From contig NZ_LT629757.1 of the NCBI RefSeq assembly GCF_900104965.1, positions 62,001 to 126,000 on the forward strand: 64,000 nucleotides of DNA, in the 5' to 3' direction. This DNA is from Nocardioides scoriae. GTDB lineage: Bacteria; Actinomycetota; Actinomycetes; Propionibacteriales; Nocardioidaceae. Under the pieces are notes generated by a model. The model made no database searches, was not told the DNA's origin, and saw only the letters and a program-made list of their open reading frames with translations. A program made the translations under genes and the position numbers. Shown one piece after another: positions 29,145 through 36,025 of this stretch (within the stretch, counting starts at the first letter, position 1; the number at the start of each line of letters is the position of its first letter).

Positions 29145-30385
29145 CGGCCCAGCTCCTGCCAGGCGGCGGGCAGGGAGCCGTCGCGGGTCAGCGTCGCGGC
29201 CTTCCAGCCGCCCAGCCGGAGGTCGGTGGTGGCGGGGCCGGCCGAGGCGTGGTGGTGGGTCAGGCCGGCGCCGTGGGTCGGGGCGTGGCGCTCCCAGCCG
29301 GCGACGTCCAGCACCACGGCGTACGCCGCGTCCCCGGCACTCGCGAGCCCGGCCAGCGTGCGGCGGTCGCCGTCGTCGAGGTGGCCGAGGACCGCGACGA
29401 GCATGCCGCCGTGCTGGGTCTCGTCGACCCAGTCGGTCGCCAGCTGCTCCTCGGTGCCGGCACCGAGCACGGCCAGCCGCTCCAGCTGCTGCTGCAGGCC
29501 CACCCCGCGATCGCCCTGGTGCCACCCGGGGGAGCCGGCACGGCCCGCGGCGGTGACCAGGCGGACCTCGAAGCCCTGTGCGGTGAGGTGGCGCAGCACC
29601 GACGCGGCAGCGCTCACGGCGGCCTCCAGCGAGGAGGCGGCGCCGCGACCGCGGTGGCTGCGGCGCCGGTGGTCGAGCAGCAGGGTGCACCGCAGCTGCC
29701 ACTCCTGCTCCTCGCGCCGGACCATCAGCTCGCTGGTGCGGGCGCTGGTGGGCCAGTGGATGCGGCGCAGGTCGTCGCCGAGGCGGTACTCCCGGATGGT
29801 GGTGTCGGGGCTGCCCCCGCCCAGCAGCTCGCGGGCGCGGTTCTCGCCGGCGCCCGCCCAGCGGCCGGTGAGCGCGATCCGGGGCAGCGCCTCGGTGCGC
29901 GGCGTGACCAGCAGGGTGGCGCTGGAGTCGAGCTCCTCGTCGAGGTCGGCCATGCCGAGCGGGTCGCTCACGTGGAGGTGGAGGGGGCCCACGGGGTAGC
30001 GGCCCCGCTGGCGCGCGTGCAGCGCGTAGTGGAGCGTGGTGCGGCCGCCCGCCTCGAGCGGGTCGACCAGGAACTGGTGACCGGCGCCCAGTGCCTCGGG
30101 CAGCGTCTCCTCCACCAGCAGCACGCCGGTGCGGCGGCGGCCCTGCGGACCGAGCTCGACCTGCACCTGCGCGGTGTCACCGGCCTCCACCCGCAGCGAG
30201 CTGAGGTCACGACGCACCCAGACGCGGCGCTCGGAGCGGCGCACCAGCACCCAGGCCACGAGCGGGACGGCGAGGGCCAGCAGCCCGATGCGCACGAAGT
30301 CGCGCTCGCCGATCTGCACGCCGCAGATCACGGCGGCGAGGCCGGCCGCGAGGAAGCACCGGCCGCGGACGGTCAGGTCACGCAC
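29141..30385 (-). CDS. DUF58 domain protein
   Basis: A 414-aa protein with two N-terminal transmembrane helices (residues ~10-50) and the DUF58 core, REYRLGDDLRRIHWPTSARTSELMVRREEQE, around residues 197-227. This core is a von Willebrand A-like fold. The region between the helices and the core is beta-rich. DUF58 proteins nearly always follow a moxR ATPase gene and are thought to be its clients. GTG 30385 overlaps the moxR stop by 8 nt, and its own stop overlaps the transglutaminase start, so the three are translated together. No enzyme activity is known. Confidence 0.9.
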   Translation of the reverse strand: MRDLTVRGRCFLAAGLAAVICGVQIGERDFVRIGLLALAVPLVAWVLVRRSERRVWVRRDLSSLRVEAGDTAQVQVELGPQGRRRTGVLLVEETLPEALGAGHQFLVDPLEAGGRTTLHYALHARQRGRYPVGPLHLHVSDPLGMADLDEELDSSATLLVTPRTEALPRIALTGRWAGAGENRARELLGGGSPDTTIREYRLGDDLRRIHWPTSARTSELMVRREEQEWQLRCTLLLDHRRRSHRGRGAASSLEAAVSAAASVLRHLTAQGFEVRLVTAAGRAGSPGWHQGDRGVGLQQQLERLAVLGAGTEEQLATDWVDETQHGGMLVAVLGHLDDGDRRTLAGLASAGDAAYAVVLDVAGWERHAPTHGAGLTHHHASAGPATTDLRLGGWKAATLTRDGSLPAAWQELGR

Positions 30386-31397
30386 GCCTGCTGCCCGAGG
30401 TGGGGGCCGGCACCGGCACCTGCGCGACGACCTGCTCGACGACGTCGACGGGGCGACGACCGTTCATCTGGGCCTCCATGGTGGGCAGCAGCCGGTGGGG
30501 CAGCACCTGCGGGGCGAGGTCGCGGACGTCGTCGGGCAGCACGAAGTCGCGGCCCTGCATGGCCGCCCAGGTGCGGGCGGCACGGACCAGCTGCAGCGTC
30601 GAGCGCGGCGAGGCGCCCAGGCGCAGGTCGGGGGAGCGGCGGGTCGCGGTGACCAGCGCCACGGCGTACTGCTGGACGGGGTGGCTCACGTGCACCCGCC
30701 CGGTGACCTCGATCAGCTTGCGGACCTCGGCGGCGTCGGTGACGGGCTCGAGGTCGTCCAGCGGGCTGATGCCCTCGCGGGCCGAGAGCATCGCGATCTC
30801 GGCCGACTCCACGGGGTAGCCCATGGACAGGCGCACCATGAAGCGGTCGCGCTGCGCCTCGGGCAGGGCGTAGGTGCCCTCCATCTCGATGGGGTTCTGG
30901 GTGGCGATGACCATGAACGGCGACTCCAGCTCGTACGTCGTCCCGTCGACCGTCACCTGGCCCTCCTCCATGCACTCGAGCATCGCCGACTGCGTCTTGG
31001 GGCTGGCCCGGTTGATCTCGTCGCCGACCACGATGTTGGCGAAGATGCCGCCCGGCCGGAACTCGAAGGCCCGGCTGTCCTGGTTGAAGATCGAGACGCC
31101 GGTGACGTCGGAGGGCAGCAGGTCGGGCGTGAACTGGATCCGGCGCACCGAGCAGTCGATCGAGCGGGCCAGCGCCTTGGACAGCATCGTCTTGCCCACG
31201 CCGGGGACGTCCTCGATGAGCAGGTGACCCCCGGAGAGCAGCACCACCAGTGCGGTGCGCGCGATCTCGGGCTTGCCCTCGATGACGGTGGCGACGTTGG
31301 CGTGGATCCGGTCGGCGACCGCCCGGACCTCCTCGACGCCTGCCGCGGGTGCGGTCCGGTCGCTCGTCCGGGTCCGTGCCTGGGTCGATCCCTGCAT
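30378..31397 (-). CDS. moxR: MoxR-type AAA+ ATPase
   Basis: A 339-aa cytosolic AAA+ chaperone. Walker A is EDVPGVGKTMLSKALA (~residue 60), Walker B GDEINRASPKTQSAML, sensor 1 FMVIATQNPIEMEGTYALPEAQRDRF; the C-terminal lid ends near ARTWAAMQGRDFVLPDDVRDLAP. MoxR proteins are believed to remodel or insert cofactors into vWA/DUF58 partners. ATG 31397 is preferred, with AGGAA just upstream; GTG 31412 would add five residues. It heads the leftward three-gene operon and is divergent from mraZ, with a 318-bp shared upstream region. The N-terminal ~15 residues are Thr/Arg-rich and probably disordered. Confidence 0.92.
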   Translation of the reverse strand: MQGSTQARTRTSDRTAPAAGVEEVRAVADRIHANVATVIEGKPEIARTALVVLLSGGHLLIEDVPGVGKTMLSKALARSIDCSVRRIQFTPDLLPSDVTGVSIFNQDSRAFEFRPGGIFANIVVGDEINRASPKTQSAMLECMEEGQVTVDGTTYELESPFMVIATQNPIEMEGTYALPEAQRDRFMVRLSMGYPVESAEIAMLSAREGISPLDDLEPVTDAAEVRKLIEVTGRVHVSHPVQQYAVALVTATRRSPDLRLGASPRSTLQLVRAARTWAAMQGRDFVLPDDVRDLAPQVLPHRLLPTMEAQMNGRRPVDVVEQVVAQVPVPAPTSGSRRA

Positions 31398-31635
31398 GGA
31401 TTCCTGGGTCACTGCTCCCTGCCCCTCCGCCGTGCTCCACGTCGCTCCACCGACGGCCACTTCCGGCCTGCTCGCACCCCACGTGCGGTCGGCTGGCCAC
31501 CAGTCAAGCGCACGGACCCACATCCGGCGCCGGGTCGACGACGCGCAGGTCACCACGGCGCGCTGGTCCCTCGCTGCCCCCGGGGTGCGCCCACCGGGGC
31601 AGACGGGTGCAAAAGGGGGGTGAAGGGGGTCGAAT

Positions 31636-31679
31636 GTGGTTGACGGTGGAGCGGAGTGGAGTAAAGTGGTGCGTAGTGG
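31636..31679 (+). promoter_or_regulatory. MraZ operator: five GTGG repeats, 10-bp period
   Basis: GTGG starts at 31636, 31646, 31656, 31666 and 31676, exactly one helical turn apart and all in the same orientation. Several are extended (AGTGGA or AAGTGGT). Direct repeats of this kind with 10-bp spacing upstream of mraZ are the known binding sites of the MraZ autorepressor in other phyla. Confidence 0.85.
31640..31667 (+). promoter_or_regulatory. Promoter of the dcw cluster (Pmra)
   Basis: TTGACG (31640-31645), a 16-bp spacer and TAAAGT (31662-31667). The MraZ repeats cover both hexamers and the predicted start near 31674, so MraZ binding would exclude RNA polymerase. Confidence 0.75.
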
Positions 31680-31715
31680 AGGAGCCAGGCGGTTCCGGGG
31701 TGGAGGGGAGAGCCG

Positions 31716-32144
31716 ATGTTCTCCGGCACCTACACCCCGAAGGTCGACGAGAAGGGCCGCCTGTTCCTCCCGGCGAAGTTCCGCGAGGAGATGAAGGAGG
31801 GGCTCGTGATCACCCGTGGTCAGGACCGCTCCCTCGACCTCCGCACCGCTGCGGACTTCGCCGACTTCACCGAGAAGTTCAAGAACGCGTCGCAGACCGA
31901 TGCCCGCCTGCGGGCCTACGGCCGGATGCTGTTCGCGCTCGCCTCGGAGCAGGTGCCGGACAAGCAGGGGCGGGTCTCGCTGACCCCCGAGCTGCGGTCC
32001 TACGCCGGTCTCGAGCGCGAGGCGGTCGTCATCGGCATCTACGACCGCGTCGAGATCTGGGAGCCCAGCGCCTGGGCCCGCTACACCGCCGACCAGGAGC
32101 AGGCGTTCGCCAACCTCTCCGAGGAAGTCTTCCCCGGCTTCTAG
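31716..32144 (+). CDS. mraZ: Transcriptional regulator MraZ
   Basis: A 142-aa DNA-binding protein with two AbrB-like half-domains, each with the DxxxR signature: DEKGR at residues 11-15 and DKQGR at about 87-91. MraZ forms a ring of eight to twelve subunits that binds consecutive direct repeats and represses its own dcw operon. The repeats at 31636-31679 fit a ring reading one repeat per helical turn. ATG 31716 follows GGAGG at 31702-31706. It is the first gene of the dcw cluster; rsmH follows after a structured leader and a small gene, a 393-bp gap. Confidence 0.96.
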   Translation: MFSGTYTPKVDEKGRLFLPAKFREEMKEGLVITRGQDRSLDLRTAADFADFTEKFKNASQTDARLRAYGRMLFALASEQVPDKQGRVSLTPELRSYAGLEREAVVIGIYDRVEIWEPSAWARYTADQEQAFANLSEEVFPGF

Positions 32145-32537: not shown

Positions 32538-33506
32538 ATGCCGACCCCCTCCCACGTCCCGGTGCTCCTCGACCGGGTCGTCACCTTGCTGGCGCCCGCG
32601 CTGCAGCGCCCCGGCGCGGTCTTCCTCGACGCGACCCTGGGCCTGGGCGGCCACACCGAGGCCGTCCTGGAGCGCTGCCCCGAGGCCCGCGCCATCGGGG
32701 TCGACCGCGACCAGCACGCGCTCGAGCTCGCCGGACGCCGGCTCGCGCCGCACGCCGACCGGTTCACGCCGGTGCACGCGGTGTACGACGAGATCCCCGA
32801 CGTCCTCGAGGAGCTCGGGCTCACCCACGTCGACGCCGTCCTGTTCGACCTCGGGGTCTCCTCGATGCAGCTCGACGTCCGCGAGCGGGGGTTCGCCTAC
32901 GCGGAGGACGCCCCGCTCGACATGCGGATGGACGACACCACCGGCCCCACCGCGGCCGACGTGCTCAACACCTACGCCTTCGGCGACCTGGCCCGGGTGC
33001 TCAGCACCTACGGCGAAGAGAAGTTCGCCCGGGCCATCGCCCGAGCGGTGCTCAAGGCCCGCGAGACCGAGCCGTTCACCACCTCGGCCCGCCTGGTCGA
33101 GCTGCTCTACGACACCATCCCGGCGCCGGCCCGCCGCACCGGCGGCCACCCCGCCAAGCGCACCTTCCAGGCGCTGCGCATCGAGGTCAACGACGAGCTC
33201 GGCGTGCTGCGCCGGGCGGTGCCGAGCGCCGTCGAGGCGATCGGGGTCGGCGGCCGCGTCGTGGTGATGAGCTACCAGTCGCTCGAGGACCGCCTCGTCA
33301 AGCGCGTCTTCACCGCCGGCAGCACCTCGCAGCTGCCGCCCGACCTCCCGGTCGTCCCGGAGGGCCACGAGCCGCCGCTGCGCCTGCTGACGCGCAGCTC
33401 GGAGAAGGCCACCGCCGAGGAGATCGCCCAGAACCCGCGCGCCGCCTCCGTCCGGCTGCGCGCCGTCGAACGTGTCAACACCAACCGGGGAGACCACGCA
33501 GCATGA
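32538..33506 (+). CDS. rsmH: 16S rRNA m4C1402 methyltransferase RsmH
   Basis: A 322-aa SAM-dependent enzyme (MraW) that methylates N4 of C1402 in 16S rRNA, tuning decoding. Motifs: [10 protein letters not shown] at the start, [16 protein letters not shown] (SAM site, ~30-45), [29 protein letters not shown], and [18 protein letters not shown], ending in [17 protein letters not shown] 32538 follows the small membrane gene by 12 bp. Its 3' end overlaps ftsL by 4 nt (ATGA). In the dcw cluster it is mainly a passenger, but cotranscription ties ribosome modification to wall synthesis. Confidence 0.97.
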
Positions 33507-34093
33507 GCCACTCACAGGCCACCACCACGGGCCGCTCGCGCCTGCCCCGCTTCGCCGAGGCCGCCGTCGAGCGGGCCCGCCTGACCGTCGTCCCGCCGCG
33601 CGCCCTCGGCCGCAGCCAGGCCGCGCGCACCCCCTTCGCGGTGCTGGTGCTGCTCCTGCTCGCCGGCGGCGTCGTCGGGCTCCTGATGTTCAACACCCAC
33701 ATGCAGCAGACCTCCTTCACCGCCACGCGGCTGCAGGACGAGGTCGACACCCTCACCGCCCAGAAGCAGTCGCTGGCCCTGGAGCTCGACGGGCTCCGCG
33801 ACCCCCAGCACCTCGGTGCCGCCGCCCAGGCGCTCGGCATGGTGGCGCCCCCCGAGCCGGCGTTCGTCCGCCTCAGCGACGGCGCGGTGCTCGGCAACCC
33901 GACCCCGGCCACCTCGGCCGACAGCGTCCAGATCACCCCCGGCCCCTCGGTCAAGCCGCCGTCGATCGAGCGCCGCACGGTCATCGTCGAGGCGACCCCG
34001 GAGGACCAGGCCGTGCGCAGCAAGCGCGGCCAGGACGCCGCCCAGGGTTCGACCGCCGACACCCCGGCGACCTCCACCGACGGCGACCGCTGA
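33503..34093 (+). CDS. ftsL: FtsL-like divisome protein
   Basis: A 196-aa bitopic protein in the normal FtsL position between rsmH and ftsI. A basic cytosolic region (1-~42) leads to one transmembrane helix ([20 protein letters not shown], ~42-61), then a short coiled coil ([20 protein letters not shown]) of the FtsL/DivIC type. The C-terminal ~95 residues are low-complexity Pro/Ala/Thr/Ser. FtsL, with FtsB/DivIC and FtsQ, activates FtsW-FtsI at the septum. Assignment rests on position and architecture, since FtsL sequences diverge quickly. ATG 33503 overlaps the rsmH stop. Confidence 0.85.
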
Positions 34094-34141: not shown

Positions 34142-36025
34142 TTGAGCCAGCCCCGACGCTCCCTGCGGGGGACCTCCCACGTCCGCCTGCGCATCGGGCT
34201 GATCGCCATCACGATGCTGCTCTCGCTCTTCGGGGCCCGGCTGTTCCAGATCCAGGGGATCGACGCCCGGTCCTACACCTCGCGGGCCGAGGCGGCCGGC
34301 GCGATCACCATCGACCTCCCCGCCAAGCGCGGCCGCATCCTCGACCGCGACGGCCAGCCCCTGGCCGAGTCCGTCGCCGGGCTGATGCTCGTCGCCGACC
34401 CCGCGACGACCCGGCCCCACGCGGAGGCCATCGCCAAGGTCATGGCCGAGCGGCTCGACCTCGACTACTTCGACCTGCTGACCAAGCTGACCAAGCAGGG
34501 CACCAACTTCGTCTACCTCGCCCGCCGGGTGCCCTCCACCCTGGCCACGAGCGTCATCGAGGAGCTGCGCACCCGCGAGCTGCCCGGTGTCGACACCCGC
34601 TCGGACCCGCTGCGCCACTACCCCGACGGCGACGTCGCGGCCAACCTGCTCGGCTTCATCAACGACGCGGGGGAGCCCGGCGCCGGCCTCGAGCTCGCCT
34701 TCGACCGGCTGCTCGCGGGCAAGGACGGCAAGGAGACCTACGAGGTCGGGGGCGGCAACCGGATCCCGCTCGGCGAGAACAGCACGGTCGAGCCCGTGGA
34801 CGGCCAGGACCTCAGGCTCACCATCGACCGCGACGTGCAGTGGTTCAGCCAGCGCGTGCTCTGCTCGGCCGTGCAGCAGGTCCAGGCCGAGTCCGGCTCG
34901 GCCGTGGTGATGGACACCCGCACCGGGGAGCTGATCGCCCTGGCCGACTGCCCGACCTTCAACCCCAACCGGGCGACCGAGTCGCCGGAGGAGCTGCTCG
35001 GCAGCCGCGCCGTCTCCGACGTCTACGAGCCGGGCTCGGTCGAGAAGGTGCTCACCTTCGCCTCCCTGCTCGACGCCAACAAGGTGACGCCCTCGACGCG
35101 CTACACCGTGCCGGGCGAGCTGCCCGTGCTCGACCGGGTGATCGGCGACTGGTTCGACCACGGCACGCTCCAGCTCACCTCGGCCGGCATCCTGGCCCAG
35201 TCGAGCAACATCGGCACGACGCTGGCCGCCTCGCAGTTCAGCGCGACCCAGCTGCACGACTACCTCACCCGCTTCGGCCTGGGCGAGCGCACCGACATCG
35301 GGCTGCCCGGCGAGAGCCGCGGCCTGCTGCCCGGGGCCTCCGACTGGTCGACCCTGAGCCGCGCCCAGATCTCCTTCGGCCAGGGCCTGTCGGTCAACGC
35401 GGTCCAGATGGCGGCCGCGGTCAACGCCGTCGGCAACGCCGGCGAGCTCGTCGAGCCCAGCCTCGTCGAGGGCGAGGAGCGCACCGACGACGGCCTCGAG
35501 GTCGGCACCGCCACCGCGACCAAGCGCCGGGCCGTCAGCGCCAAGGCCGCCGCCGAGGTCAGCCAGATGATGGAGCTGGTGACCACGCCCGACGTCGGCA
35601 CCGCCCCCGGCGCCGGCATCGAGGGCTACCGCGTCGCCGGCAAGACCGGCACCGCGCAGCAGGCCGGTGGCGACTGCAGCTGCTACGCCGACGGTGGCGT
35701 CGCGGTGTCCTTCGGTGGCTTCGCCCCGGCCGACGACGCCCGCTTCACCGTCTACGTCGTGGTCAACAAGCCCGCGGCGGGCGGCTCGGGCGCCGGCACC
35801 GCCGGCCCGGTCTTCCGCAAGATCCTGTCCTACGTCCTGCAGAAGTACGCCGTGGCGCCCACCGGCACCGCGCCGTCCACGCTGCCGACGACGTGGGCCG
35901 ACGACCCGTCCTCGGTCGGCCAGCCGTCCGCGCGGATGGTGCGCCCCGGCGCGACCTCGGAGGCCGACGACACTGCGGCTGACACCGGGTCCGGCACCGG
36001 GTCCGACACCGGCAGCGGCCGGTAG
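34142..36025 (+). CDS. ftsI: Septal transpeptidase FtsI (PBP2/PBP3 class B)
   Basis: A 627-aa class B penicillin-binding protein that cross-links septal peptidoglycan. A short cytosolic tail and one membrane helix (LRIGLIAITMLLSLFGARLF, ~17-36) precede the dimerisation domain (AKRGRILDRDGQPLAES). The transpeptidase domain has SxxK near residue 299 (PGSVEKVLTF), SxN in AQSSNIGTT and KTG in AGKTGTAQQ (~500). The C-terminal ~35 residues are Thr/Gly/Ser-rich; no PASTA domain is present. Initiation is at TTG 34142 with GGAG 8 nt upstream (34130-34133); no better start fits the helix. It corresponds to mycobacterial PbpB and works with FtsW. Confidence 0.95.
   Translation: MSQPRRSLRGTSHVRLRIGLIAITMLLSLFGARLFQIQGIDARSYTSRAEAAGAITIDLPAKRGRILDRDGQPLAESVAGLMLVADPATTRPHAEAIAKVMAERLDLDYFDLLTKLTKQGTNFVYLARRVPSTLATSVIEELRTRELPGVDTRSDPLRHYPDGDVAANLLGFINDAGEPGAGLELAFDRLLAGKDGKETYEVGGGNRIPLGENSTVEPVDGQDLRLTIDRDVQWFSQRVLCSAVQQVQAESGSAVVMDTRTGELIALADCPTFNPNRATESPEELLGSRAVSDVYEPGSVEKVLTFASLLDANKVTPSTRYTVPGELPVLDRVIGDWFDHGTLQLTSAGILAQSSNIGTTLAASQFSATQLHDYLTRFGLGERTDIGLPGESRGLLPGASDWSTLSRAQISFGQGLSVNAVQMAAAVNAVGNAGELVEPSLVEGEERTDDGLEVGTATATKRRAVSAKAAAEVSQMMELVTTPDVGTAPGAGIEGYRVAGKTGTAQQAGGDCSCYADGGVAVSFGGFAPADDARFTVYVVVNKPAAGGSGAGTAGPVFRKILSYVLQKYAVAPTGTAPSTLPTTWADDPSSVGQPSARMVRPGATSEADDTAADTGSGTGSDTGSGR

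Follow-up and report, generated by a model that had tools for sequence, protein, structure and literature searches.

The regulator MraZ is widespread among bacteria and is found on the central operon of cell division, and the operator at the mraZ promoter of E. coli K-12 is said to have been described by Eraso et al. in 2014. Read from the sequence, that promoter carries three direct GTGG repeats at an exact 10-bp period, at -44, -34 and -24 from the start codon and downstream of TTGACA (-81) and TAAACT (-57); the 434 bp upstream hold one lone opposite-strand GTGG, so there is no inverted array. According to the accessible part of one report, E. coli MraZ represses its own cluster through upstream boxes (PMC8475190). 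For Burkholderia cenocepacia, the accessible sections of PMC7761207 describe a fragment bound by MraZ in EMSA that carries four 7-nt repeats separated by 3 nt, overlapping the start site and downstream of the -10. The Mollicutes site is given in the available passages as (AAAGTGKN3)3, three repeats in the stated consensus, with an octamer as its reader (PMC5282649, PMC8475190). Two PDB entries, 9sz7 and 9r4j, are by their titles M. genitalium MraZ with promoter DNA, the former with a four-box promoter; no paper describing 9sz7 was found in a literature search. To judge from that title, the way in which a ring built of identical subunits recognises direct repeats along linear DNA is being worked out only now, on four boxes.

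In the window analysed here (the whole stretch, 64,000 nucleotides), mraZ is preceded by five GTGG boxes. They share with E. coli direct repetition at the mraZ promoter with a period of exactly 10 bp, with B. cenocepacia the period (7 + 3 nt) and the position over the start site (here a predicted one), and with Mollicutes the GTG core and the period. They differ from all of these, and from the DNA of 9sz7, in number; from E. coli and B. cenocepacia in their placement relative to the promoter; from Mollicutes in their flanks; and from E. coli in the presence of a second, inverted array further upstream.

The mraZ locus and its promoter array

The product of mraZ (31716-32144, + strand), the presumed reader of the boxes, scored 123.9 bits with TIGR00242 (cut-off 98.35), which places it in the MraZ family, and also exceeded the cut-off of PF02381 (114.2 bits, two stretches). 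An AF2 monomer model (mean pLDDT 86.6) gave 16 PDB matches at E <=0.001, all of them MraZ entries (1n0e and 1n0f among them are titled UPF0040 and named mraZ elsewhere), which points to an MraZ fold for the modelled protein. This is the fold found in 9sz7 and 9r4j, the TM score (by query) being 0.82 for chain A and 0.83 for chain H of 9sz7; none of the PDB matches to the model is a five-box complex. On the same strand follow rsmH/mraW (32538-33506; TIGR00006, 295 bits), the second gene of the cluster, ftsL (33503-34093; NF053549 FtsL_Actino, 85.2 bits, cut-off 55) and a gene for an ftsI-like penicillin-binding protein (34142-36025), named by its position and by PF00905 and PF03717, both over cut-off. 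Divergent from these on the - strand is a gene for a moxR-like AAA ATPase (30378-31412; PF07726, 213 bits) that has a Walker A motif and candidate starts at GTG 31412 or ATG 31397.

The five GTGG boxes lie on the + strand at 31636-31639, 31646-31649, 31656-31659, 31666-31669 and 31676-31679, at an exact 10-bp period as the earlier note had read them; their spacers differ from one another and the cores alone repeat. As 10 bp is about one helical turn, the boxes share one face of the DNA. A scan of 31380-31760 returned TTGACG-16-TAAAGT at 31640-31667 (+ strand) as the sole promoter-like site, with 0.0 expected in shuffles. Box 1 stands directly 5' of the -35 hexamer (31640-31645), which lies inside the spacer of boxes 1 and 2, and the -10 hexamer (31662-31667) occupies the spacer of boxes 3 and 4 and runs into box 4, whose first two bases are its end. 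Deduced from the position of the -10, transcription would start at about 31674-31676, i.e. at box 5; 36 bp separate the end of the array from the mraZ start codon. The earlier description of boxes covering the -35, the -10 and the predicted start is borne out in that the promoter is threaded through the array, and is refined in that the -35 falls between two boxes and the -10 ends in one.

The window holds the pattern GTGGN6GTGGN6GTGG four times, where dinucleotide shuffles predict 0.04; the promoter array accounts for three of these matches and the inverted array ~200 bp upstream for the fourth. Across the genome (4.06 Mb) it was found five times, against three for the reversed-pattern control; three boxes alone are therefore not rare and no case is built on them. 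The five-box pattern was found once genome-wide (control 0), and the weight of the evidence lies in the five boxes and their conservation.

Box number and conservation among relatives

Upstream regions of mraZ were compared over 250 bp in three samples. The genus sample comprised 23 of 24 genomes, with L047 (G023) left out and a second, incomplete copy in G003 not counted; adding 15 genomes from elsewhere in the order and another 66 named loci, for the most part of Nocardioides and Kribbella, gave 104 unique order loci. The phylum sample comprised 110 loci, from 115 genomes with a match among 119 searched, after leaving out our own genome and the four lowest-scoring (G115, G107, G050 and G069). 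The loci come from related species and hence are not independent. The uncounted copy in G003 (L050, L312; contig C153), an additional mraZ match that is partial and has consensus boxes of its own, was seen in this one genus genome and could be assembly contamination.

Five exact boxes formed the longest chain in 16 of the 23 genus loci, four in four loci, and three, six and one in a single locus each, the last being L048 (G022), whose start codon is uncertain. Four was the usual number elsewhere in the order, both in the 15 other members (three boxes in one, four in 12, five in two) and in the 66 named loci (three in two, four in 60, five in four). Across the phylum three was commonest (one box in 19 loci, two in 38, three in 44 and four in nine) and none of the 110 mraZ promoters had five exact boxes; these counts use GTGG only, so that lineages with other cores are undercounted. 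When one mismatch was allowed outside the TG core, at least five positions were reached in 20/23 genus and 66/81 other order loci and in 6/110 phylum loci, where the arrays ran to five or six positions. The 10-bp register itself was general: at least two GTGG stood 10 bp apart in 91 of the 110 phylum loci, whereas a spacing of 11 bp gave 16 loci, 13 bp gave 11 and each of 7, 8, 9, 12 and 14 bp gave 0-3. Searched as a pattern, five exact boxes were found in 7/396 phylum genomes, five of which show plain tandem repeats by eye; the other two are our own genome and G387, with the array before mraZ. Six exact boxes were found in 5/196 order genomes, three being tandem repeats by eye, and in G013 and G553 the arrays stand before mraZ. 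The G387 locus (L261), from another family, has GTGG and TTGG in register upstream of its five exact boxes, which makes seven positions.

The earlier note had taken five boxes to be more than usual and had asked for a comparison with upstream regions of relatives. The first point stands when the array is set against the described cases considered here, with three or four boxes, and against the phylum, but not within the genus, where five is typical. Since most genus loci have five boxes and five-position arrays occur in most of the order, the array is not peculiar to this genome. Judged on its sequence, it is an ordinary MraZ operator for the genus and a long one by phylum standards; the type of operator is already known and the five-box form is a long variant of it.

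Conservation was followed box by box in an alignment anchored on boxes 3 and 4, which took in 101 of the 104 order loci (21 genus, 80 other; L048, L049 and L033 could not be anchored) and in which boxes 3 and 4 are present in 21/21 and 80/80 by construction. Box 2 was exact in 20/21 genus and 79/80 other loci and box 5 in 21/21 and 78/80 (each 99/101 together), and GTGG one period beyond the array was found in 0/101 loci upstream and 1/101 downstream. Box 1 was exact in 16/21 genus and in 6/80 other loci; read as nTGG, it was kept in 20/21 and 66/80, its first base carrying almost no information outside the genus. The fifth box is thus largely one base sharpened: these alignments show that five-position arrays are widespread across the order, the genus having kept or regained the first G of box 1. 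Constraint on the TGG of box 1 could also come from its belonging to an extended -35. TTGAC occupied the -35 place in 68 of 76 four-box loci, and the -10 was conserved, with T at 0.97 and A at 0.99 in spacer positions 3 and 4 (n=103). Of 39 relative genomes, 13 had matches to a strict three-box consensus, 14 sites altogether against none in the control; all of these lie, by coordinates, just upstream of an mraZ match, and our own genome had no match.

How many boxes are engaged at once can be read in more than one way. Five subunits of one MraZ ring might touch the five boxes simultaneously, a reading that we hold tentatively, at somewhat less than an even chance. The exact 10-bp register across five positions, the retention of the first as nTGG, and the two genomes in which six exact boxes precede mraZ, with seven positions readable in a third, are in its favour; the MraZ complex in 9sz7 has four boxes by its title, however, and the freedom of the first base of box 1 outside the genus means that this box may be weakly bound or constrained merely as part of the promoter. 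The alternative is redundancy, in which the ring takes three or four boxes at once with several registers possible, or a second oligomer adds to the first. This could also be so, though we would not quite give it an even chance: the longest exact chains range from two to six among relatives and the TTGAC/TA promoter is kept in the order, but so is the 10-bp register across all five positions. Natural arrays of two to six boxes are ready substrates for counting engaged MraZ subunits. Very improbable is a mere tandem repeat or effect of composition in which MraZ has no part; the plain repeats in five of the seven phylum genomes with a five-box match show that such sequences occur, but in the window the spacers differ and the cores alone recur, and the cores are conserved across aligned loci and eroded where mraZ is absent.

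Genomes without mraZ and the proposed operator

A PF02381 match was lacking in 13 genomes, 11 of which (one genus, 6-10 Mb) have retained rsmH, with moxR upstream of it in opposite orientation. These 11 genomes, two from the phylum search and nine more of the same genus (L283-L293), served as a natural control. No 10-bp GTGG pair was found in them on either strand up to moxR (12,171 bp), and no two neighbouring exact boxes in any of the 11; TTGAC and TAAAGT remained upstream of rsmH at unchanged spacing in 10. Boxes 1 and 2 were lost in all 11. For boxes 3-4-5, seven loci have GTGG-GTGA-GCGG and two have GTGG-GTGA-GTGG, the deviant loci being L290 (TTGC-GTGG-CCGG) and L292 (GTGG-GTAA-GTCA). 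Ten loci still matched the promoter-array template at 20-23 of 26 positions, compared with a mean of 13.9 and a maximum of 18 in shuffles; L292, at 14/26, was no better than the shuffles. Eroded boxes beside a kept promoter should be the pattern expected after loss of a repressor. The boxes go with MraZ in these 11 genomes, all of one genus and so probably reflecting a single evolutionary loss, and their erosion is independent evidence on which bases MraZ reads.

GTG-core direct repeats at 10 bp upstream of mraZ, overlapping its promoter, with conserved cores that erode where mraZ is gone, agree with the earlier suggestion of an MraZ-type operator and are good evolutionary evidence for operator function. 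The five boxes are very probably the MraZ operator of the division cluster, from which MraZ would repress its own operon. A ring-shaped MraZ oligomer would read the boxes with successive subunits on consecutive turns of one helix face and, lying over the -35, the -10 and the start, would keep RNA polymerase off and in this way repress the operon that encodes it; box 1, a full GTGG mainly in the genus, would most likely strengthen binding over the -35. According to the available text of a study of Dietzia, MtrA binds the mraZ promoter (PMC9602371), so MraZ need not be the sole reader and the region may be shared.

Inverted arrays upstream

A second array in the window, three GTGG on the - strand at an exact 10-bp period (31437-31460), lies ~25-63 bp before the candidate moxR starts. 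Inverted boxes were sought in the order from 110 bp upstream of mraZ to a point 50 codons short of the Walker A motif of moxR, a region available in 99 of 104 loci, with no Walker A motif found upstream in L015, L009, L032, L121 and L132. Inverted 10-bp GTGG pairs numbered 95, compared with 3.2 expected from dinucleotide shuffling (maximum 8 in 100 shuffles), and were present in 59 of the 99 loci; in the genus just 5/22 loci had one. The longest exact inverted chain was three boxes in seven loci and two in 52. Pairs at spacings of 11, 12, 13, 22 and 23 were likewise enriched, the inverted arrays therefore being less regular than the promoter array. The spacers of inverted pairs average R, G, C/G, R, A, A, like promoter spacer 2-3 and unlike coding GTGGN6GTGG in composition (n=58). 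Across the phylum, opposite-strand 10-bp pairs between -450 and -120 numbered 30 where 1.1 were expected and came from 19 of 110 loci; on the mraZ strand there were 23 (1.0 expected), some of which will belong to promoter arrays whose leaders are long. From -700 to -450 there was one pair per strand (108 loci).

The placement of these arrays raises the possibility that they are the operator of the divergent moxR operon and not an auxiliary operator of mraZ. An opposite-strand moxR-type Walker A motif lies upstream in 99/104 order loci, inverted arrays face moxR as the promoter array faces mraZ, and that of the window stands close before the moxR starts. However, an inverted pair beyond -110 was present in 20 phylum loci, and by coordinates moxR lies within ~3 kb in nine of these and not in the other 11; the inverted arrays are thus not tied to moxR. 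Eight of the co-directional upstream ORFs were scanned and all have Pfam matches (DUF3040 in four, and TetR, integrase, enoyl-CoA hydratase and HNH), while the two divergent upstream ORFs scanned had none. On the loci without moxR and the domains of the co-directional ORFs, moxR was dropped as exclusive owner of the inverted array, and we consider the moxR-operator reading less likely than not.

Its distribution suggests that the inverted array is part of the control region of mraZ rather than of moxR. It would most likely be an auxiliary MraZ site of that region and, where moxR is the divergent neighbour, might also place moxR under MraZ. We tentatively suggest, as a possibility that falls a little short of an even chance, that the MraZ region of Actinomycetota is bipartite, with the promoter array joined by a second, opposite array of the same boxes 120-450 bp upstream, that two rings facing each other or a single bridging ring would act on both, and that in Propionibacteriales the divergent moxR operon would thereby also come under MraZ. 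Inverted arrays point to regulation not seen at the E. coli promoter and are the feature worth pursuing; literature searches on MraZ with MoxR and on MraZ boxes, confined to papers outside subscription, found no prior mention of them.

At the inverted sites of the 39 relative genomes the strict three-box consensus had no match. A box-pair consensus matched the promoter array alone in our own genome, and the array at 31437-31460 does not match it, although its three cores are exact; as it is without the flank consensus, its function here is less certain than that of its counterparts in relatives.

Helical phasing between inverted and promoter arrays was considered (81 loci, 49 distinct distances) and set aside, as no phasing was specific: on distinct distances, periods of 9.5, 10.5, 11 and 12 bp all gave a Rayleigh p of 0.04-0.06 and a period of 10.0 gave 0.40, the lower values on all 81 loci arising because distances repeat among related species. 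A GCAGGTCAG element near the inverted arrays was also discarded as too weak, its 8-mer CAGGTCAG occurring in 12/104 order and 4/110 phylum loci. In moxR leaders such as those of L094, L097 and L106, a TATGTTGCGCGCACCACATAC-like element recurs between the inverted array and moxR, and TATGTTGC was found in 29 of the 104 order loci.
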